Assembly: GCF_040183065.1 (NCBI RefSeq)
Contig: NC_091120.1
Coordinates: forward strand, 176,299,988-176,363,987
Direction of reading: 5' to 3'
Length of the DNA stretch: 64,000 bases
DNA from: Periplaneta americana
Taxonomy: Eukaryota; Arthropoda; Insecta; Blattodea; Blattidae
In this document: in pieces, positions 2,340 to 56,208 of the stretch
How positions within the stretch are numbered: the first letter of the stretch is position 1
How the letters are laid out: the number at the start of each line of letters is the position of its first letter
Notes under the pieces: generated by a model
The model's database searches: none
Told to the model about the DNA's origin: nothing
Seen by the model: only the letters and a program-made list of their open reading frames with translations
Program-made: the position numbers and the translations under genes

Positions 2340-3078
2340 TAGCGAGGGAATCACTTAAAATGTGTTATTTTCTAAGAAATAATAACATACCAATAACTTA
2401 CATTGTTCAAGCCACATCCTGTGTCATTTTTACATTTATAAACCTTATAGGTGATAGAACAGCATGCTGAAATTCATCAGAGCCAACTACCTGATAGTAA
2501 TCGTGAAATGGTAGGACTGTCCTTGTCATTTTATATAGTATAAATGAGTTGCTTCCCTTATGCAGTCTCCGTTTTCTAATACGAATATTTCCCTTAATCT
2601 CAACTAATAATAAAACTGACCTAAATTTTTGTGGTAATTTTCGCCTTTGCAAAAATTATCGCCGTAAACATAATATATAATTAGCTTTACTGAGACAAAA
2701 AATCGCATTTTTGACATTTTTGTTTGTATGTATATCTGTCTGTTTGTTTGTTACCTTTTCACGCAATATTGGCCGAATCGATTTCTATGAAAATTGGTAT
2801 ATAAATTACGTTGGATCCCACTTAAAATTTAGGCTATATGGCATTCAAAATACCTTCTTTGCAAGAGAGATATAAAGAGGACTGAAGGCAATAAATCGAA
2901 ACATCTCTCTTATTATTGATTTTTTTAGAAAAATGTTACATTACAAAAGTTTTTTTAAAAAATGTTTCCGACAAGTTTTATTCCATGCAACATTTTAATA
3001 AAACTGATATTTAAGAGATAGACTATATGAGTTTTAAAATAACAATGCTTTTTTATATCAGTGCCGCCTCAATCACAT
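2340..3078. other. AT-rich DNA with possible transposon tail
   Basis: No gene. The stretch at about 2730-2870 (CACGCAATATTGG, then CCGAATCGATTTCTATGAA) resembles a motif I often associate with old insect DNA transposons, but the termini are not visible and I do not assign it. Confidence 0.25.
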
Positions 3079-3083
3079 TAATA

Positions 3084-3265
3084 CCACAGTCTAGTATATA
3101 CAGTCACGAAGCGTGTGTTTTGAGGGTGCTAGGAACAATGGACTGTGCCGGTAGTATTTCGCATTGTCTGTAATGAGGCGACAGTAGCGATACTAGTGGT
3201 TAGCAACTAACTACAGATGCATATTTGCTACGTATTGAGCTTCGTGACTGTATATACTAGAGTGC
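3084..3265. mobile_element. MITE, CACAGTCTA family (copy 1)
   Basis: A 182-bp element with inverted ends CCACAGTCTAGTATATACAG and CTGTATATACTAGAGTGC (right end slightly decayed). It is flanked by TAATA on both sides (TAATAC on both if the terminal base is counted). The internal sequence is about 85-90% like the copies at 6065-6248, 40383-40559 and 41723-41892. There is no coding capacity. The superfamily is not assigned: CACAG ends recall CMC/Transib-type elements, but the flanking duplication does not fit neatly. Confidence 0.85.
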
Positions 3266-3411
3266 TAATACAATGAAGTGAAAACAAATGACTCTGCGCT
3301 TATTTTAGACGGCCTTGCACAACAAACGGAAGATGTTCAATTAACACTATTGCTATATGCATATCATCGTAAATATAAATGTTTATAAATATTAATAGGC
3401 TATGTAAAGAA

Positions 3412-5894: not shown

Positions 5895-6064
5895 CTGAAA
5901 CCAAACATCAAGGCATTAGTCACGAATTGCGTTTAATTAATGGAAGTCATGCAAGGTAATTTGAGGAAATATTATTACTTAATAGAATCACTGTACTGAT
6001 ACATCAATATTTCTCAGAGGAATTATGTAAAACATTCAACTTTCTGCACTCTTTGGAAGTAACA

Positions 6065-6248
6065 CCACAGTCCAGTATATACAGTCACGAAGCTTGAGTT
6101 GTGAGGGTGCCAAGAACAATTGACTGTGTCGGTACTATTTCGCATTGTCTGTAATGAGGCGATATTAGCGATCCTAGTGGTTAGCAACTATCTATGGATG
6201 CATATTTATTACGTATTGAGCTTCGTGACTGTATATACTAGACTGCAG
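6065..6248. mobile_element. MITE, CACAGTCTA family (copy 2)
   Basis: A 184-bp element from CCACAGTCCAGTATATACAG to GTATATACTAGACTGCAG, flanked on both sides by TAACA (GTAACAC on both sides if the outermost bases are counted). It lies just upstream of exon 5, in intron 4 of the lipase gene. Confidence 0.88.
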
Positions 6249-6640
6249 TAACACTGTAATTTAAAGTTAATCAAGTACATTGATATCTACGAGTAATTTA
6301 AATTATTTAATTCTCTACTGTACCCGAAGACTGATAAGTTATGAACTTTTGAATAATTCATGCTATGTAAGAAAAATTTCTTAAAGTAAATGTAGTCAGT
6401 AACACATGAAAATGTAGCTAATTGTAAGAAGAATTTAATTTTTTCTTCATTTCTATATTCAGTATCCAATTTTCTGCCCCATATGTCATGCAGTTTTTAG
6501 TCATCGTCTTAAAAATCTGCTTTGTTATTCCACGGATTCAGAAGGAGAAGCTCGACGATTGACTGTGTATTAGGCTACTATAAATCAGATACTTGAGGAA
6601 AGAAGGAAATGTAATATTCTTGAAACACATACATATATTT

Positions 6641-6862
6641 GCTAATATGTTTTCGCGGGATATCAGCCGAGTTAAGATTTTGGAATGCTCCAAGCTTTCG
6701 ACTGCTATCTCTGCAGCCATCTTCAGGGAAGTGATGTCCGAACCGAAAGTCGACTTTCGGTTCGGACATCACTTCCCTGAAGATGGCTGCAGAGATAGCA
6801 GTCGAAAGCTTGGAGCATTCCAAAATCTTAACTCGGCTGATATCCCGCGAAAACATATTAGC
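6641..6862. repeat. Perfect 222-bp palindrome
   Basis: Two 111-bp arms, identical and inverted, meet without a spacer at GAAAGTC|GACTTTC (6751/6752). The arms start GCTAATATGTTTTCGCGGGA and run through the centre to the exact complement. The same translated string appears in a plus and a minus frame, which confirms symmetry. It lies in lipase intron 4. Either a very young foldback element or an assembly artefact. Both overlapping open frames are by-products of the palindrome. Confidence 0.9.
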
Positions 6863-6901
6863 GAACCAACGCCGAGAAAGCCTCAAATCATACATACATA
6901 A

Positions 6902-21394: not shown

Positions 21395-21517
21395 CTGCAC
21401 ACAAGAGAGCATAAAGTGTCGGATGATTTTCAATTTTCACGACTACAATAAATAGCGTTTTCCAATGTTGGGACAAGACACCACCGTCACCAGAAAAAAA
21501 ATCAAAGGTGTACGTAT

Positions 21518-22773
21518 AGCTTTACTATTCTGCATATTCTTATGTAGAACTACGTGTGGGTGCGATCACCTGTCGACAAGTGCATAGCTTTACTACGCTG
21601 CAGATCCTTATGTAGAACTGTGTGTGGGTGCGATCACCTGTCGACAAGTGCATAGCTTTACTACGCTGCAGATCCTTATGTAGAACTGTGTGTGGGTGCG
21701 ATCACTTGTCGACAAGTGCATAGCTTTACTACGCTGCAGATCCTTATGTAGAACTGTGTGTGGGTGCGATCACTTGTCGACAAGTGCATAGCTTTACTAC
21801 GCTGCAGATCCTTATGTAGAACTGTGTGTGGGTGCGATCACCTGTCGACAAGTGCATAGCTTTACTACGCTGCAGATCCTTATGTAGAACTGTGTGTGGG
21901 TGCGATCACTTGACGACAAGTGCATAGCTTTACTACGCTGCAGATCGTTATGTAGAACTGTGTGTGGGTGCGATCACCTGTCGACAAGTGCATAGCTTTA
22001 CTACGCTGCAGATCCTTATGTAGAACTGTGTGTGGGTGCGATCACCTGTCGACAAGTGCATAGCTTTACTACGCTGCAGATCCTTATGTAGAACTGTGTG
22101 TGGGTGCGATCACCTGTCGACAAGTGCATAGCTTTACTACGCTGCAGATCCCTATGTAGAACTGTGTGTGGGTGCGATCACTTGTCGACAAGTGCATAGC
22201 TTTACTACGCTGCAGATCCTTATGTAGAACTGTGTGTGGGTGCGATCACCTGTCGACAAGTGCATAGCTTTACTACGCTGCAGATCCTTATGTAGAACTG
22301 TGTGTGGGTGCGATCACTTGTCGACAAGTGCATAGCTTTACTACGCTGCAGATCCTTATGTAGAACTGTGTGTGGGTGCGATCACTTGTCGACAAGTGCA
22401 TAGCTTCACTACGCTGCAGATCCTTATGTAGAACTGTGTGTGGGTGCGATCACCTGTCGACAAGTGCATAGCTTTACTACGCTGCAGATCCTTATGTAGA
22501 ACTGTGTGTGGGTGCGATCACCTGTCGACAAGTGCATAGCTTTACTACGCTGCAGATCCTTATGTAGAACTGTGTGTGGGTGCGATCACCTGTCGACAAG
22601 TGCATAGCTTTACTACGCTGCATATCCTTATGTAGAACTGTGTGTGGGTGCGATCACCTGTCGACAAGTGCATAGCTTTACTACGCTCCAGATCCTTATG
22701 TAGAACTGTGTGTGGGTGCGATCACCTGTCGACAAGTGCATAGCTTTACTACGCTACAGATCCTTATGTAGAA
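21518..22773. repeat. 68-bp satellite array, left half (about 18 units)
   Basis: The period is 68 bp exactly (GTAGAACTG at 21612, 21680, 21748). The unit holds GTGTGTGGGTGCGATCAC and the 16-bp perfect palindrome CACTTGTCGACAAGTG, alternating with CACCTGTCGACAAGTG. Units here almost all carry AGCTTTACTACGCTGCAG. It is broken at 22774 by a MITE. Confidence 0.97.
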
Positions 22774-24095
22774 CCACAGTCTACTATATACAGTCGCGAA
22801 GCTCAATATGTAGTAAAAATGCAAACATGGGTAGTTGCCCACCACTAGGATCGCTACTATCTCCTCATCATCTCAGATCTCTGTCCTAGCATCCGACAAA
22901 ATATGTTACACTTTCGTTGTCGTGTTCTTTTGGAAAAATTAACACCTTCCTTCCATTATTGAAATATTAAACGCATAAAGTTAATTTATTATTTTAATGA
23001 AGTATATTAAATTCCACCATAAACTCGAAGATACCTGCAAGAAATAAGTTAATATAATTTTTGTTTGTTCAAAACCAACTGAAATTTACTATAATAGCTT
23101 CACTCATTCAAGATTATAGCGAAAATTAACTATGAAACCAGTAAATATTAATTTGCATTTCTCTTTACAACAATAATAATGGAAATATGAATTAATGCAG
23201 TAACTTACGTGTACCGGTACTTGTAGTGTAGGCTTACGTAGTTAACAAAGTGGGATGAGGTTAAGCAATAATAATCACACCAGAATTGGAAATAAAACGT
23301 GATCAGTAAATTTTATTGTAACATACTTTTTCTACGTCTCTAGTAAAGCAACAGATAAAAATAACAACAAATTAACAGCTATAATTAAAAACATATCCTT
23401 TGAAGAAAAAAGTAGGCCTAAACAATAATAATCCCACCAGAATTGAAAATAAAACGTGATCAATAAATTTCATTAAAACAAACTTAATTTTTCTACGTCT
23501 TTACTAAATAACATATAAAAATAATAACAAAATTAATAGCTACAATTAAAAATATATCCTCTGAAAAAAAAAGTAGACCTAATCTTTATTTCTCTGGAAA
23601 TTTAACAGCCTAAGTGACAGAACTTTAACCGGTATCTAATGTCCTTTCAGTTAGACTGAAACGTTTCATTGTGAAATTTAATGATATAATATATTCTAAC
23701 AGTCACAAAGAACTTCAAATTAACAGTTTTGTTTCTGCACAGCATTCTTGTGGAAACCCAGGAACCTTTCTGAATCTTTCGGAAAAAAGGATAACTGGTC
23801 TCTTTCTCTTACTGTTGCTACAATTTATAGCACTACAAACGTCTCCTCCTTGTACCATATTATTATTCCAATTATTATATTTTAGCCATTAACATTTTCA
23901 TTATAACCAATAACGAACATTTCACAAGCATCAATGTGAAATACGCAACGAGCTAGCACTCGATAGAAATACGACACAGTCCAAAGTCGACCATGGACAG
24001 TCTATTATTTCTAGTTGCTAACCGCTTGGAGCGCTTTATCACGAGATTTGCAAAAAAACACCTCAAGCTTCGCGACTGTATATAGTAGACTGTGG
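22774..24095. mobile_element. 1.3-kb member of the CACAGTCTA MITE family, inserted in the satellite
   Basis: The left end CCACAGTCTACTATATACAG and right end CTGTATATAGTAGACTGTGG are inverted over at least 28 bp. The flanks are TAGAA on both sides (GTAGAAC on both if the ends are taken as CACAG...CTGTG), and the satellite resumes exactly. The left 130 bp are the inverted match of the small copies' right part. The middle contains a 155-bp tandem duplication and no coding frame, so this is a longer, still non-autonomous relative. Confidence 0.93.
23265..23580. repeat. Tandem duplication (about 155 bp) inside the MITE
   Basis: CACCAGAATTGGAAATAAAA and the following AACGTGATCAGTAAATTT recur at about 23431 as CACCAGAATTGAAAATAAAA and AACGTGATCAATAAATTT, followed by TTTTTCTACGTCT in both. 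Confidence 0.75.
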
Positions 24096-25290
24096 TAGAA
24101 CTGTGTGTGGGTGCGATCACTTGTTGACAAGTGCATAGCTTCACTACGCTGCAGATCCTTATGTAGAACTGTGTGTGGGTGCGATCACTTGTCGACAAGT
24201 GCATAGCTTCACTACGCTGCAGATCCTTATGTAGAACTGTGTGTGGGTGCGATCACTTGACAAGTGCATAGCTTCACTACGCTGCAGATCCTTATGTAGA
24301 ACTGTGTGTGGGTGCGATCACCTGTCGACAAGTGCATAGCTTTACTACGCTGCAGATCCTTATGTAGAACTGTGTGTGGGTGCGATCACCTGTCGACAAG
24401 TGCATAGCTTCACTACGCTGCAGATCCTTATGTAGAACTGTGTGTGGGTGCGATCACTTGTCGACAAGTGCATAGCTTTACTACGCTGCAGATCCTTATG
24501 TAGAACTGTGTGTGGGTGCGATCACCTGTCGACAAGTGCATAGCTTCACTACGCTGCAGATCCTTATGTAGAACTGTGTGTGGGTGCGATCACTTGTCGA
24601 CAAGTGCATAGCTTCACTACGCTGCAGATCCTTATGTAGAACTGTGTGTGGGTGCGATCACCTGTCGACAAGTGCATAGCTTCACTACGCTGCAGATCCT
24701 TATGTAGAACTGTGTGTGGGTGCGATCACTTGTCGACAAGTGCATAGCTTTACTACGCTGCAGATCCTTATGTAGAACTGTGTGTGGGTGCGATCACCTG
24801 TCGACAAGTGCATAGCTTCACTACGCTGCAGATCCTTATGTAGAACTGTGTGTGGGTGCGATCACTTGTTGACAAGTGCATAGCTTTACTACGCTGCAGA
24901 TCCTTATGTAGAACTGTGTGTGGGTGCGATCACCTGTCGACAAGTGCATAGCTTCACTACGCTGCAGATCCTTATGTAGAACTGTGTGTGGGTGCGATCA
25001 CCTGTCGACAAGTGCATAGCTTCACTACGCTGCAGATCCTTATGTAGAACTGTGTGTGGGTGCGATCACTTGTCGACAAGTGCATAGCTTCACTACGCTG
25101 CAGATCCTTATGTAGAACTGTATGTGGGTGCGATCACTTGTTGACAAGTGCATAGCTTTACTACGCTGCAGATCCTTATGTAGAACTGTGTGTGGGTGCG
25201 ATCACCTGTCGACAAGTGCATAGCTTCACTACGCTGCAGATCCTTATGTAGAACTGTGTGTGGGTGCGATCACTTGTCGACAAGTGCATA
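24096..25290. repeat. 68-bp satellite array, right half (about 17.5 units)
   Basis: Same unit and phase as the left half, but most units carry AGCTTCACTACGCTGCAG instead of AGCTTTACTACG. The first unit after the MITE and a few others carry CACTTGTTGACAAGTG. The array ends at CGACAAGTGCATATT, and unique sequence follows. Confidence 0.97.
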
Positions 25291-27099: not shown

Positions 27100-27689
27100 A
27101 TACAATTTATTTATGATCAGTATGGATGTTTTATAGAAAACAAAATATCTGATTTAAATCCTGGCACGGACACTGAAAATCGTGATGCACAGAGACGTAA
27201 TTGGGGGTGTTATTTCTGGGAGAACTCTCATCCATACCCCTGCCATAATTCCATCGTTTCCATTCCACCGTTATATGAAAGTGTGCGGCCTATTGCAGAA
27301 TCATGAAGCACATTGCTGGGGTTCGGTATGTGACCGTTCGTTTTGGCAGAGGCGTATACTGGTTAAAGGGTTTGGGCTACCGCTGACCCTATTATTACAC
27401 AAAATATATCTAACAATTACTTTAATTTTAATTACTATGGTAAAACTAATAATACAACATTATTACATTATGTTATATTATAAACTTTTTCTTTTGTAAT
27501 TTCCTTGGGCTACCGCCGGTAGCCCCGGTAGCCCGCAAAATACGCCCCTGCGGTTTTGGACAAAATAGAGAGATTTACCGTGAACAGACTGATAGGATGA
27601 CGGATTGGTGAGTGTCTGAATTAGTGCATGAATTGATTGATTGATGGGCGAATTTACTGATTGATGGACATATAGATTGGTTGATTGGT
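27100..27689. other. Intron 1, 3' end
   Basis: Unremarkable sequence between exon 2 and the minisatellite. GGGCTACCGC...GGTAGCCC short inverted motifs (27373-27545) suggest a decayed small element. Confidence 0.3.
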
Positions 27690-29345
27690 GAATGGGTAGA
27701 CTGGTTGCTTAATGAGCGGGTAGACTGGTAGCTTAATGAGTGGGTGGACTGGTTGCTTAATGAGTGGCTAGGCTGGTTCCTTAATGAGTGGGTGGACTAG
27801 TTGCTTAATGAGTGGGTAGACTGGTTGCTTAATGAGTGGGTAGACTGGTTGCTTAATGAGTGGCTAGACTGTTGCTTAATGAGTGGGTAGACTTATTGCT
27901 TAATGAGTGGGTGGACTAGTTGCTTAATGAGTGGGTGGATTGGTTACTTAATGAGTGCGTGCACTGGTTGCTTAATGAGTGGGTGGACTGGTTGCTTAAT
28001 GAGTGGCTAGACTCGTTGCTTAATGAGTGGGTGGACTAGTGCTTAATGAATGGATAGACTGATTGCTTAATGACTGGGTGGACTGGTCGCTTAATAAGTG
28101 GCTAGACTGGTTGCTTAATGACTGGGTGGACTAGTTGCTTAATGAGTGGGTAGACTAGTTGCTTAATGAGTGGGTGGACTAGTTGCTTAATGAGTGGCTA
28201 GACTGGTTGCTTAATGAGTGGGTGGACTAGTTGCTTAATGAGTGGGTGGACTGGTTGCTTAATGAGTGGGTGGACTGGTTGCTTAATGAGTGGGTGGACT
28301 AGTTGCTTAATGAGTGAGTGGACTGGTTGCTTAATGAGTGGCTAGACTGGTTGCTTAATGAATGGCTAGACTCGTTGCTTAATGAGTGGGTGGACTGGTT
28401 GCTTAATGAGTGGATGGACTGGTTGCTTAATGAGTGGGTGGACTGGTTGCTTAATGAGTGGCTAGACTCGTTGCTTAATGAGTGGGTGGACTGGTTGCTT
28501 AATGAGTGGCTAGACTCGTTGCTTAATGGGTGGGTGGACTAGTTGCTTAATGAGTGGACGGACTAGTTGCTTAATGAGTGGCTAGACTGGTTGCTTAATG
28601 AGTGGGTGGACTGGTTACTTAATGAGCGGGTAGACTGGTTGCTTAATGAGTGGGTAGACTGGTTGCTTAATGAGTGGATGGACTGGTCGCTTAATGAGTG
28701 GATGGACTGGTCGCTTAATGAGTGGGTGGATTAGTTGTTTAATGAGTGGGTGGACTGGTTGCTTAATGAGTGGATGGACTGGTCGCTTAATGAGTGGGTG
28801 GACTAGTTGCTTAATGAGTGGGTGGACTAGTCGCTTAATGAGAGGGTTGACTAGTCGCTTAATGAGTGGGTGGACTGGTTGCTTAATGAGTGGGTGGACT
28901 GGTCGCTTAATGAGTGGGTGGACTAGTTGCTTAATGAGTGGGTGGACTAGTTGCTTAATGAGTGGGTGGACTAGTTGCTTAATGAGTGGGTGTACTAGTT
29001 GGTTAATGAGTGGGTGGACTGGTTGCTTAATGAGTGGATGGACTGGTCGCTTAATGAGTGGGTAGACTAGTTGCTTAATGAGTGGGTGGACTGGTTGCTT
29101 AATGAGTGGGTAGACTAGTTGCTTAATGAGTTGGTGGACTAGTTGCGTAATGAGTGGGTGGACTGGTCGCTTAATGAGTGGACTAGTTGCTTAATGAGTG
29201 GATGGACTAGTTGCTTAATGAGTTTATGGACTAGTTGCTTAATGAGTGGGTGGACTAGTTGCTTAATGAGTGGGTAGACTGGTCGCTTAATGAGTGAGTG
29301 GACTAGTTGCTTAATGAGTGGATGGACTAGTTGCTTAGTGGGTGG
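27690..29345. repeat. 24-bp minisatellite, about 68 units
   Basis: The unit is GGTTGCTTAATGAGTGGGTG plus GACT, with frequent variants (CTAGACT, CGCTTAATG, GATGGACT). Because 24 is a multiple of three, long stretches stay open in every frame: LLNEWVDW at 28318-28542 and GWTGRLMS at 28670-29065. There is no codon-level constraint, start context or splice logic to make it a gene. It lies in lipase intron 1, about 600 bp upstream of exon 2. Confidence 0.95.
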
Positions 29346-29370
29346 GTGTTCTGGTTTATTGATGAGTGGG

Positions 29371-29372
29371 TG

Positions 29373-29432
<60 letters not shown>
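29371..29432. repeat. (ATTG)n microsatellite
   Basis: About 15 GATT units directly following the minisatellite and probably derived from its GATTGATT-like edge. Confidence 0.9.
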
Positions 29433-36361: not shown

Positions 36362-37688
36362 TAGGGACCGGATTTTTATGTAATATCAAGGTGTGAAATA
36401 TGTACATATTTATGTAAGAAAAATAAGCTGAATATGTACCAAAATATGTAAAATCATGAAAATATTTAATATCAATACGTGGTAGGTATAGGATAGGTAA
36501 GACTCTTCAGTTGTGATTTCATAGAGCACCCGACTTTTTTACTGCACACTTGACACAATACTATTTCTCCATCTGTAGTGAAAGCTTCGTCCATCGCAAT
36601 CCATAATTTTATTTTTGTCGTTAGGATTGAAGATACAGGGGCCACTTTAGTTAGTACAAGCAGGAGATAAACTCACTTGCACTTTATGCTGTAAGTACTA
36701 AAACTAGAGAACTGAGTAAAATGAATGACACAACAGTACTGCAAGCACTGTTTCGCTTTACTGGATTAGGAGAAAATAAGAGATGTGGGACACATGCATT
36801 TTAGCTGCTCCCTGTAAGAAACAAAGTACCTACTAAAAGCTCAAACCATAGGTATTTACAAACTGTTGTTTGAAAAGTGACATTCCTGTCTCACTCAGAA
36901 GGGTAAGATTATTCCAGCCGAGAACCATAGTTTCTAATTCCTCGGAAAATCCCATTTCCGCATAGGTCTACTAAATTTAAAGTAAAGAGGTCAAGCAATA
37001 ACCTGAAAAGCTATTTATTTTAATCTTTCAACATCTTTCCAGTTTGTTCCTTTACTCCAGCTTCTTTTCGAAAGTCGGTTACTTTATAGCGGCTCATGTC
37101 AGACTTGACACGGGTTTTCCATGGAAAGATTAGGAAGAGGGTGGGTAAAGTTGCAATTGCATGGGAACAGGTTGTTAAGACGTGTGCAGAACAATTATAG
37201 TTCGAGACAAATCATGTCGTCCTCGACCCACTCCACCGCATGAAGACAACGCTACTTTCTGAGTGATTTTTACATTACAAGGTAGTTGTATGAGAAGGTT
37301 GTATTTTGTTCACTCATATTTACAGTAGGCGGTATGGGATGAGAGCCTCTATTACTTCCTGGAACTAAGGACGTTATGTTTCGTTCCGAAATATATATTT
37401 TCTTGGGTAGGTAAAAAGGCTTTTTAAATCTGTGTATTTCAAATTATAAACTTCCCCAACAGAAGTTTTTTCTCTCCCTTTTAGAAAAGTAAAAATGAAT
37501 AAACCCCTTAAATATGTAGATGTATGTAATACCAAGCCATAATACGCAATGTGGGGTAAATATGTAAAAATATGTAGTATACAATTTTAATATATTAATG
37601 GTAATTACAAGATTCGCGAAGATTGTTATTTATATACGATTAGGTTGAAAGGAATATAATATGTAATTACATAAAAATCCGGTCCCTA
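36362..37688 (-). mobile_element. hAT element (TAGGGACCGG ends), mostly deleted
   Basis: TAGGGACCGGATTTTTATGT at the left is inverted at the right (ACATAAAAATCCGGTCCCTA). A perfect 8-bp duplication ATAATAAC (36354-36361, 37689-37696) flanks it. On the minus strand, about 36530-36610 reads DEAFTTDGEIVLCQVCSKKV, a BED-like finger start comparable to FTTDGKVLFCQTCGKSV in 44350-45693. A sister subfamily of the TAGGGAGCGG elements. Confidence 0.88.
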
Positions 37689-40190: not shown

Positions 40191-40382
40191 TAGTTTTGTC
40201 CAGCCCGAGCCGAGCACGAGACGTGTTATCTAAGTACACTCACGGCTTGCCGCTCTTGGACCTTCGGTCCCTGGAGTGGGGATAATGCAGCTTCACTCAA
40301 TGAACAATACGCCTTGACAAAGTCTTGCCGTGGGTAGCTGTGAGAACACTACACAGTTGCCATGTTTAGTCACAGTGTGTTA

Positions 40383-41892
40383 CCACAGTCTACTATATAC
40401 AGTCACGAAGCTTGAGTTTTGAGGGTGCTAGAAACAATAGACTGTGCCAGTATTATTTTGCATTGCCTGTAATGAGACGATATTAGCGATCCTAGTGGTG
40501 AGCAACTATCTAATGTTTGCATATTTACTACGTATTGAGCTTCGCGACTGTATATACTAGCACCACAGTCTAGTATATGGGCTATTCCATATGAAATCGA
40601 TCAGTAAAAAAACTCGCATTTTTTATACTCTTAATTTTTTCCCTATTTATACAAGGTGCTGAAGAATGTGCGTTTTCAAAAATATACTATCGAAAGTCAA
40701 ACGGTTTTCGTATTGTTGAGCGACAAATTTAGCGTATTTTATAAAAACAGGCCTCTTTCAGCGCTAAGAACTCTGGAACCATTTATTGCAGAACATTGAA
40801 CGAGAGCCCATTTTGAAGCTGACATTTGGTAGGTTATGATAAGAAATAATCCTTATTTTTATTGTATACAGAGAGACAGAAAATCTGATTTTACTTACTT
40901 TTAGGCTTTTTGCCAATTTGTAAAAATGTAAAAAAATATTGAGAAAAAAACTTACATTATTAAGAGGGATTAGGCATTGTTTGCTTAGTGTCACGGCAAT
41001 AAGTTTCGGGGATATTAAATAAATTATTTTCACACGCCTAGACTTGAAAGGCGCAACACAGCACGCACTGGCCGAGAGATGAAGATAAGCGAGCGTTGGG
41101 CGTCATTTTACTCCTGTGTTTATGAAAACCTGTGATAAAGCTAGCCCAGCTATGCGCTACTAGACGAAACATCACGTGTTTATGTCTCCTGGCCTTGCTT
41201 GCCTAGGCTAGCTCCCGCCTCACAGTCAGCTGGTTAGCTCACGCGCGTACTATTTATTTTCTTTATTTGATTTTTCAATACTTTCTTATTAACGTTGCAC
41301 CAGTAAAAAATACGTGTTTATTTGTACTTTCAATGCGGAATCTAACCATATATTTTAAAAATATTTTTTCGTGGGCAAAGGCGTCTTAATGAAGAAAAAT
41401 CTAAATTTCTCCATTTCCATAAAAAGTAAGAAAAACTGTTTACATGTCAATATAAATTTTAACTTTTCAGCATCAAAAATAAACCATGATTTTGATCATT
41501 GGGTGAAAGGGTTTCGGAGCTACAACAGTTTAAATTTGCTAATTTTATGAAAATACGATAAATTTAAATATTTTTAATTTAAACACTATGAAGTTCTGAT
41601 GCCTCAAACCTTGCACAAAACATTGTATCATAATTGTCTACGGACAGAAAAAGTTTCATTGTACTTAAAAATTGCAAGGTCAATTTTCTCTATATTTCGG
41701 TCGATTTGAGACGGAATAGCCCAAATACAGTCACGAAGCTTGAGTCGTGAGGGTGCTAGGAACAATAGACTGTGCCGGTACTATTTCGCATTGTCTGTAA
41801 TGAGGCGATATTAGCGATCCTAGTGGCTAGCACCTATCTATGGATGCATATTTACTAAGTATTGAGCTTCGTGACTATATATTAGACTGTGG
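40383..41892. mobile_element. Dimer of CACAGTCTA-family MITEs with a nested element
   Basis: Unit 1 is 40383-40559 (CCACAGTCTACTATATACAG to CTGTATATACTAG). Unit 2 begins at 40563 (CCACAGTCTAG) and ends at 41892 (TTAGACTGTGG). The outer flanks are TGTTA/TGTTA (GTGTTAC/GTGTTAC if the ends are CACAG), so the dimer shares one target duplication. Unit 1 lacks its last bases. Unit 2 is split by the element 40579-41722. Confidence 0.88.
40579..41722. mobile_element. 1.14-kb element with GGGCTATTCC ends
   Basis: GGGCTATTCCATATGAAATC at the left is inverted at the right (GATTTGAGACGGAATAGCCC) over about 24 bp with a few differences. It interrupts unit 2 of the MITE dimer 16 bp from its left end. The target duplication is unclear (ATAT against AAAT). 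No conserved coding; superfamily not assigned. Confidence 0.8.
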
Positions 41893-41936
41893 TGTTACGG
41901 TGGTAGTAATGTGCTATATTACACCTTGATGAGAAC

Positions 41937-44349: not shown

Positions 44350-45693
44350 TAGGGAGCGGATTTTTATGTGCTAAAAAATTTAAATATATTTATTTTTATG
44401 TGCTAAAAAGTACGAAAATATTTGACAAAAATAAAAAAAAAATATTTTTTAAATATGACAAAAATACCTTACTTAGCTTGAAAAAAAAATGATACTAGGT
44501 ACTCACCAATCACACTTGAGTATCAGTTGCTAGTAGTTGGCCGAGAATTGCAGTGAACAACAAAGGTTCTTTCCAAATTCTCCATCACAAATGCATTTCC
44601 ATTATCTCTGAACAACGACTTATACTGTGAAAACGATCTTTCCACATCACAGGACGTCAGATGTGCATATTTAAAGAGAGGAATGTCACAAACACACCAT
44701 CAATTTGACCCAATACTTGAGCAACTTTACACATTTTTTTATATCCACTGTTTTGCCATGAATGCACACGTGAAGCAGCGGCAATGTGCTTGTTTCCAGA
44801 CAATGTTGGGTTACCTGAGAGCTCTGATCTGCACTTACTGATTTACCACATGTTTGGCAAAATAACACTTTTCCGTCGGTAGTAAAAATGTTTTTAAATT
44901 CATCTACATGTTGCTATAGACGCGATCTTAAACTCGATTTTATTTTAGGCATCTTAAGGGGCTAATATACACACGCCTTAACGTAAAAAAGTGTTTCTAG
45001 CTACTGACTGACAATGTCGGAGAAAAGCTTCCTATAGCGACGCCACCACGTCTACACTACGCAGCTTACGCTTATGGTCCGATAACGGGGGAATCACAGC
45101 AAGATGTATTTCCTCACTTCATAGGCATGAGCGAGAGGCGAAAGATTTGTTTAAATTAAATAATGTTTATACCCGAGCTCTCATCCGTTGTGTTTCACAA
45201 ACAAAGCGCGGAATGAAATCATCTTCAGCAACAATAAACATTCCTAATTATGTGTTGCAAAATCTCTCCTTCTTGTCCATGTTAATTTATTCTCTAATAA
45301 TAACACTGATATGCTGCCTAGCATTTCTCAGAACTTAAGGCGATACTATTACAAAAATGGATCTCGGATACATCACACAGCTCATAGAAACACGAAGCAA
45401 CCAAGAATTCTTAAAAAGAAAACGTATATCTGAGTGATATAATTGATTTAGTTTTAAAATATTTAAAAGTTCTTGTAAAAAAAAATTGAGCAAAAAAACA
45501 CAAGATTTATGTGTTTATAATAGATTTCCTGAAAATATGTATTTACATAAATTTTTTGTGAAAATATGTGTTTTTATGTGAAATAAAATTCGGGTTTTAA
45601 ACTTGAAACTTGACATTCGGAATTTTTAACTTTGTTAATTGTGTTCTATCACAAGCAAGAAAAATATTTAATTACATAGGAATCCGCTCCTTA
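44350..45693 (-). mobile_element. hAT deletion derivative (copy 2) joining BED finger to C-terminus
   Basis: TAGGGAGCGGATTTTTATGT at the left, ACATAGGAATCCGCTCCTTA at the right, flanked by GTAATCAC / GTAATCAT (7 of 8). On the minus strand, 44950-44690 reads MPKIKSSLRSRL, stop, HVDEFKNIF, then DGKVLFCQTCGKSVSADQSS (BED-like CxxC finger). After a shift it goes directly into DIPLFKYAHLTSCDVERSFS, QYKSLFRDN and FVVHCNSRPTTSN-stop, the hAT C-terminal dimerisation end. The catalytic core between them is deleted, so the copy is non-autonomous. Confidence 0.88.
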
Positions 45694-51209: not shown

Positions 51210-51835
51210 ATAATTTCGAGGGAAAAATTGTTCCGGAGCCGGGTATCGAACCCGGGACCTTTGGTTTAACGTACCAACGCTCTACCACTGAGCTACTCGG
51301 GAACTCTAACCGACACCGATCCAATTTTTCCCTCTAAATCCACAGACCTCAAAGTGGGCTGACAACCGTCAAGCAACCAACTTTGAGTGCACACTAACTC
51401 CGTGTGACTTAAATTGTGGCTTTCTGTTAACGAACAGTGACGTGTATTATGCAAATCAAGATTTCAGGTATAACTCCCTGTAAAGTTGATTGAATAATTT
51501 CGAGGGAAAAATTGTTCCGGAGCCGGGTATCGAACCCGGGACCTTTGGTTTAACGTACCAACGCTCTACCACTGAGCTACTCGGGAACTCTAACCCACAC
51601 CGATCCAATTTTTTTTTAACGTACCAACGCTCTACCACTGAGCTACTCGGGAACTCTAACCGACACCGATCCAATTTTTCCCTCTATATCCACAGACCTC
51701 AAAGTGGGCTGACAACCGTCAAGCAACCAACTTCGAGTGCACACTAACTCCGTGTGACTTAAATTGTGGCTTTCTGTTAACGAACAGTGACGTGTATTAT
51801 GCAAATCAAGATTTCAGGTATAACTCCCTGTAAAA
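51210..51835 (-). mobile_element. Tandem tRNA-like SINE units (family B)
   Basis: Two minus-strand tRNA-like heads (51228-51310 and 51512-51600) and a partial third (51619-51665) repeat with a 284-bp period (TTCCGG at 51231 and 51515). Each head has TAGCTCAGTGGTAGAGC, stem TTGGT/ACCAA, and CCGGGTTCGATACCCGG. The shared body contains GACAACCGTCAAGCAACCAA and GTGGCTTTCTGTTAACGAAC. The same family flanks the RTE end at 15.6-16.9 kb. Confidence 0.85.
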
Positions 51836-55955: not shown

Positions 55956-55959
55956 TCCC

Positions 55960-56208
55960 AGATCACATATAGATTGCTCAGTCCTATGTTAAAAACGGTT
56001 GCACTTTGAAGAGAACCTCCAGAATCGCCATCCATCCGCCGTAAACGAACACGAGATGGAAGTACAGTCGCTAATGCAATTCAAATGGGAGTTATGACGT
56101 GACTCCTTATATAACACCTAGATGGCAGCATAGTAAACCTGACAAAAGTTGTTACTGTCAAAGCCTATAACGCAGAGCAATCTGGATATATATGATCTAG
56201 GGTAGAAT
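55960..56208. mobile_element. MITE with CCCAGATCACATAT ends
   Basis: CCCAGATCACATATAGATTG CTCAG at the left is loosely inverted at the right (CAGAGCAATCTGG, ATATATGATCTAGGG). CCTAGATGGCAGCATAGT and its relatives recur in fragments at 56452-56545 and 62152-62310. Confidence 0.6.

Follow-up and report, generated by a model that had tools for sequence, protein, structure and literature searches.

A stretch of 64,000 nucleotides of Periplaneta americana DNA (hereafter the window) carries near 40.4 kb an inverted-repeat insertion with duplicated flanks, which raises the question of what kind of transposase could have moved it and its relatives. The first-pass annotation had described four insertions of a MITE family with matching flanks and an apparent 7-bp duplication of a palindromic GTNNNAC target, and had suggested that, as no superfamily seemed to fit, an undescribed lineage could be involved.

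Four insertions and their flanks

The insertions share the ends CACAGTC...GACTGTG, and the features considered below are the following:

40377..40383, + strand: target duplication GTGTTAC, left
40384..40563, + strand: MITE copy A, left end intact
40564..40578, + strand: MITE copy B, left end (CACAGTCTAGTATAT) up to a nested insertion
40579..41722, no strand assigned: nested element of 1,144 bp, unrelated to the MITE, ends GGGCTATTCC...GGAATAGCCC
41723..41891, + strand: remainder of MITE copy B, right end ...TTAGACTGTG
41892..41898, + strand: target duplication GTGTTAC, right
22768..22774, + strand: target duplication GTAGAAC, left
22775..24094, - strand: larger relative, 1320 bp
24095..24101, + strand: target duplication GTAGAAC, right
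6059-6065 and 6248-6254: target duplication GTAACAC/GTAACAC of copy C
6066..6247, + strand: MITE copy C, of 182 bp, with CTGCA as its degraded right end
3078-3084 and 3265-3271: target duplication TTAATAC/CTAATAC of copy D
3085..3264, + strand: MITE copy D, of 180 bp, with AGAGTG as its degraded right end
21516..25290, + strand: 68-bp tandem array (18.5 + 17.6 copies) holding the 1320-bp element

The inverted ends extend over approximately 30 bp, with the consensus CACAGTCTASTATATACAGTCRCGAAGCTY followed with substitutions in the four insertions. Of the ends CACAG...CTGTG proposed for the family, the right one is mutated at 6.2 kb (to CTGCA) and at 3.3 kb (to AGAGTG). Four of the five copies (A to D) measure about 180 bp and are 88-93% alike in pairwise comparison. 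The fifth, of 1320 bp, has a left end in which 89-94 bp match the MITE right arm (at 82-89%, depending on the copy) and a right end in which about 35 bp match the MITE left arm, while its middle has no match to the MITE. Both size classes display the same end asymmetry, with CTTGAG at one end and CTCAATA at the other (one copy being substituted). The family has several short copies with inverted ends, a duplicated target and no recognized coding capacity in the pieces scanned, as MITEs do. Neither the one scanned ORF piece lying mostly within a short copy (40406-40600) nor two ORF pieces of the 1320-bp element gave a Pfam match, the latter at E up to 1.

The letters of the right end, TAGACTGTG, recur inside the short MITE at about 55-63 bp from its left end, in the copies at 3085-3264, 6066-6247, 40384-40563 and 41723-41891, two of the four holding one-base variants. 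This internal motif could be a candidate subterminal binding site or, possibly, the relic of an end.

At 40384-41891 the reading as an insertion flanked by GTGTTAC was retained, whereas its reading as a single element had to be given up, because the interval comprises two tandem MITE copies and a nested unrelated element. The recognizable right arm of copy A ends in ...TATACTAG (40560) and is followed by CAC (40561-40563) and then by copy B, so that the joint reads TATACTAG-CAC-CACAGTC and the right end of copy A is lost there. Copy B is itself split after 15 bp by the 1,144-bp element, which has inverted GGGCTATTCC ends, is bordered by ATAT/AAAT, possibly an imperfect 4-bp duplication, and matched no Pfam family with either of its two scanned ORF pieces. 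The presence of both copies between one pair of GTGTTAC could be explained by a later copy entering the target already duplicated by the earlier one, with about ten bases lost afterwards, and equally by a rearrangement. The whole interval may have moved as one unit, the alternatives being successive insertion at one target and later rearrangement.

All four flank pairs were confirmed at their positions. In the 7-bp register the left and right flanks of each insertion agree at 27 of 28 positions (7, 7, 7 and 6 of 7), against 16-24 identities in the other 23 of the 24 possible pairings of the same flanks, whose scores are high because all flanks share the motif. Just outside this register, agreement drops to 0-1 of 4 at each of five positions on both sides. 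GTNNNAC itself occurs at three of the four sites, the fourth having TTAATAC as its left and CTAATAC as its right flank, and the proposed palindromic target and apparent 7-bp duplication are thereby supported. As the motif makes up 0.35% of the window's 7-mers, a simple binomial gives about 2e-7 for its chance occurrence at three or more of four sites, a figure to be read with the caveat that it was these very sites that first drew attention to the motif.

The window was also scanned without regard to the motif, for duplications beside 14-bp inverted repeats (at least 12 matching). At 7 bp five hits were obtained, corresponding to the 40.4-kb and 22.8-kb insertions, an internal pairing at 40.4 kb, and sites at 55.95 kb and 9.8 kb, compared with 0, 1, 0, 0 and 0 hits in five first-order Markov sequences, in which AT-rich simple repeats were kept although they had been filtered from the window hits. 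The same scan at 5, 6 and 8 bp, performed on the window without controls, gave 1, 13 and 4 hits, which include several palindromes or members of other families. Owing to their degraded right ends, the copies at 6.1 kb and 3.1 kb escaped the scan.

At 55957-56201 lies a 245-bp element with the ends CCCAGATCACATAT/CCTAGATCATATAT and the 7-bp sequence GTAGAAT on both sides, which may represent another family of similar target preference but could also be due to chance. Two non-identical elements at 36362-37688 and 44350-45693 have the ends TAGGGA(C/G)CGGATT, with TAAGGAGCGGATT at one end, and 8-bp duplications (ATAATAAC on both sides of one, GTAATCAC/GTAATCAT beside the second, read by eye); judged from these letters they look like a hAT-type family. 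A near-perfect palindrome at 6638-6865, with two 114-bp arms that are 99% complementary and no spacer between them, may be a genuine fold-back or else an artefact of assembly.

An empty site within a tandem array

The 1320-bp element interrupts a 68-bp tandem array, the intact units of which supply the empty site CTTAT-GTAGAAC-TGTGTG. Among 36 matched units, ATGTAGAAC is uninterrupted in 35 and ATGTAGAACTGTG in 33, and 29 units are identical over 32 bp; the 36th unit is the one directly to the right of the element. Between empty and filled site a single GTAGAAC becomes two, one on each side of the 1320 bp, and the spacing across the insertion amounts to 1395 = 68 + 1320 + 7, meaning that the duplication cannot exceed 7 bp. 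A tandem array acting in this way as its own empty-site control is a clean example of its kind.

Under the 5-bp reading, also considered by the first-pass annotation, the duplication would be TNNNA with a preference for outer G and C, and the element would possibly be C-CACAG...CTGTG-G. Both lengths can be read from the same letters because the element may itself end in C...G, letters that merge with the outer G...C of the palindromic target. Copy D speaks slightly for 7 bp, since one of its flanks would then have undergone a transition (T to C) rather than a transversion (G to C), but the right end of this copy is degraded.

Tandem repeats are found elsewhere in the window. A 24-bp array of 71 copies occupies 27678-29381; along part of it both strands have open frames, which would specify a repeated peptide. 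Two tRNA matches of equal score lie 284 bp apart on the same strand (51231-51302 and 51515-51586), the latter overlapping a 66-bp tandem repeat.

Candidate transposases

Of the 167 ORF pieces selected from the window (at least 62 aa, low-complexity sequences removed), 148 were covered by a Pfam scan, which at E up to 0.01 returned six families, among them RVT_1 (one reverse transcriptase) and a lipase. Neither THAP nor P-transposase was among them, and one further piece of the 167, scanned separately, gave no match. The single transposase-like match was a weak one to the hAT dimerisation region (E 0.0025, one of the 148 pieces). No autonomous copy with the MITE ends was seen in the window, and not seeing a P-type transposase there is what would be expected for MITEs. 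The window is eukaryotic and insect-like: for its lipase exon the best organism-named match belongs to Blattella germanica (70% identity, with 61% of the query covered), which ranks third of 43 behind two JGI 'hypothetical proteins', with Timema, Frankliniella and Camponotus lower.

The exact end patterns gave 0 hits in public viral contigs. In prokaryote contigs the end pattern was hit 5 times, in no case preceded by CACAGTC within 14 bases, which we read as chance, unrelated occurrences. Little follows from this silence, as insect repeats would hardly be expected in such collections. In a literature search for CACAGTCTA as text, the 8 best-ranked papers, of 3,247 containing two or more of the three terms, showed no occurrence; any paper containing all three would have headed the ranking.

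The CACAGTC end presumably resembles the ends of Transib elements and RAG signals, and a Transib-type MITE family would have the 5-bp TNNNA as its true duplication; as the outer G and C would merge with the possible terminal C...G, this shorter length could apply to all four sites. Duplications of 5 bp are in fact described for the Transib families hopper and transib2, but the motif given for them in the available text of the same source, CCANTGG, fits none of the four (PMC3276498), and a Transib origin is considered very improbable. That a hAT-type family is involved, with a duplication one base short, is likewise very improbable, even if hobo prefers GTNCGNAC, likewise of the form GT...AC (PMC3276498, available text), hAT-like elements seem present in the window (36362-37688, with the 8-bp ATAATAAC) and the dimerisation region was weakly matched in one of 148 ORF pieces. 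Duplications of hobo were 8 bp long in 1,196 of 1,198 insertions according to the same text, whereas flank agreement falls short of 8 bp at each of the four sites and the empty site of the array permits at most 7 bp.

The undescribed superfamily originally proposed would agree with the failure to link any transposase to the ends, and with 0 hits in the viral scans and only unrelated ones (5) in the prokaryotic contigs. It is nevertheless decidedly unlikely, because target length and palindrome fit a group already described: 7-bp targets of the sequence GTTNAAC (1360) and GTANTAC/GTATTAC (Galileo) have been published for the P superfamily, and the assertion that no superfamily fits could not be upheld. 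Two further candidates were discarded. Dada elements generate 6-7-bp duplications, but they target small RNA genes, and in their U6 and U1 families terminal inverted repeats were not found; Tetris-like foldbacks generate duplications of 8-10 bp and were placed with Mutator by their authors.

P-superfamily elements compared

Target, duplication length and element anatomy together suggest that the family most probably consists of P-superfamily MITEs of the 1360/Galileo target type. This classification draws on the 7-bp GT...AC targets of 1360 and Galileo, on the P-driven MITEs of Anopheles and on the distribution of the P superfamily, which was present in every species of a 73-genome arthropod survey, Blattella germanica included (PMC6327564, from the part of the survey available). 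The 8-bp duplications of the Anopheles MITEs, of the canonical P element and of three Galileo copies count against it. The canonical element inserts at GTCCGGAC, and ANAGT...ACTNT is given as the extended flank motif of the P group (both in the available text of PMC3276498); here, ACTGT is found at two of the four right flanks and ANAGT at none of the four left flanks.

P-type transposases are described, in the accessible part of PMC7776569, as having a THAP domain, an RNase H-like core and a GTP-binding insertion domain. In the mechanism that we infer, the non-autonomous MITEs would be cut and pasted by a transposase of the P superfamily, with targeting of the 1360/Galileo type, whose gene would lie in a master copy elsewhere in the genome. 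This enzyme would bind their inverted ends of about 30 bp (CACAGTCTASTATATACAGTCRCGAAGCTY) and insert them into a palindromic GTNNNAC site, with strand-transfer points 7 bp apart, and repair of this stagger would leave the 7-bp duplication.

It is also conceivable, though unlikely, that the MITEs are mobilized in Blattodea by a deep lineage, so far undescribed, that neighbours the P elements and combines CACAGTC ends with GTNNNAC targets. If such a lineage existed, its transposase could show that 7-bp GT...AC targeting long predates the Drosophila elements 1360 and Galileo. Apart from the target type and the array control, the family is an ordinary one among MITEs.

Among the closest known systems, a likeness in target to the putative P-superfamily MITEs described here is shown by 1360 (Hoppel) of Drosophila melanogaster, a member of the P superfamily whose modal duplication is 7 bp (274 of 279 insertions) and whose motif, GTTNAAC, fits GTNNNAC (PMC3276498, available text). 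The likeness concerns the target, and 1360 is a Drosophila family, whereas the present MITEs are blattodean. Galileo, also a Drosophila member of the P superfamily, typically generates 7-bp duplications as well, with the consensus GTATTAC from 118 copies and GTANTAC from 106, the three exceptional 8-bp copies being from D. willistoni (PMC4168063, in the part available); its target has also been given as GTAGTAC. It differs in anatomy, as its terminal inverted repeats are long and internally repetitive (1.2 kb in Galileo-G), against ends of about 30 bp here, and its two-TIR forms average 1.7-2.2 kb, against some 180 bp in most of the present copies. In size range and structure a parallel is offered by the P-driven MITEs of Anopheles gambiae, in which short and kb-sized elements (205-2450 bp) combine P-derived ends with unrelated middles (PMC1562414, accessible text), much as the 180-bp and 1320-bp forms share their ends here. 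According to the same text, the Anopheles elements generate 8-bp rather than 7-bp duplications, and P masters were found for them only. With the P-superfamily assignment, the 7-bp GTNNNAC target type described for Drosophila elements would be extended to a blattodean.
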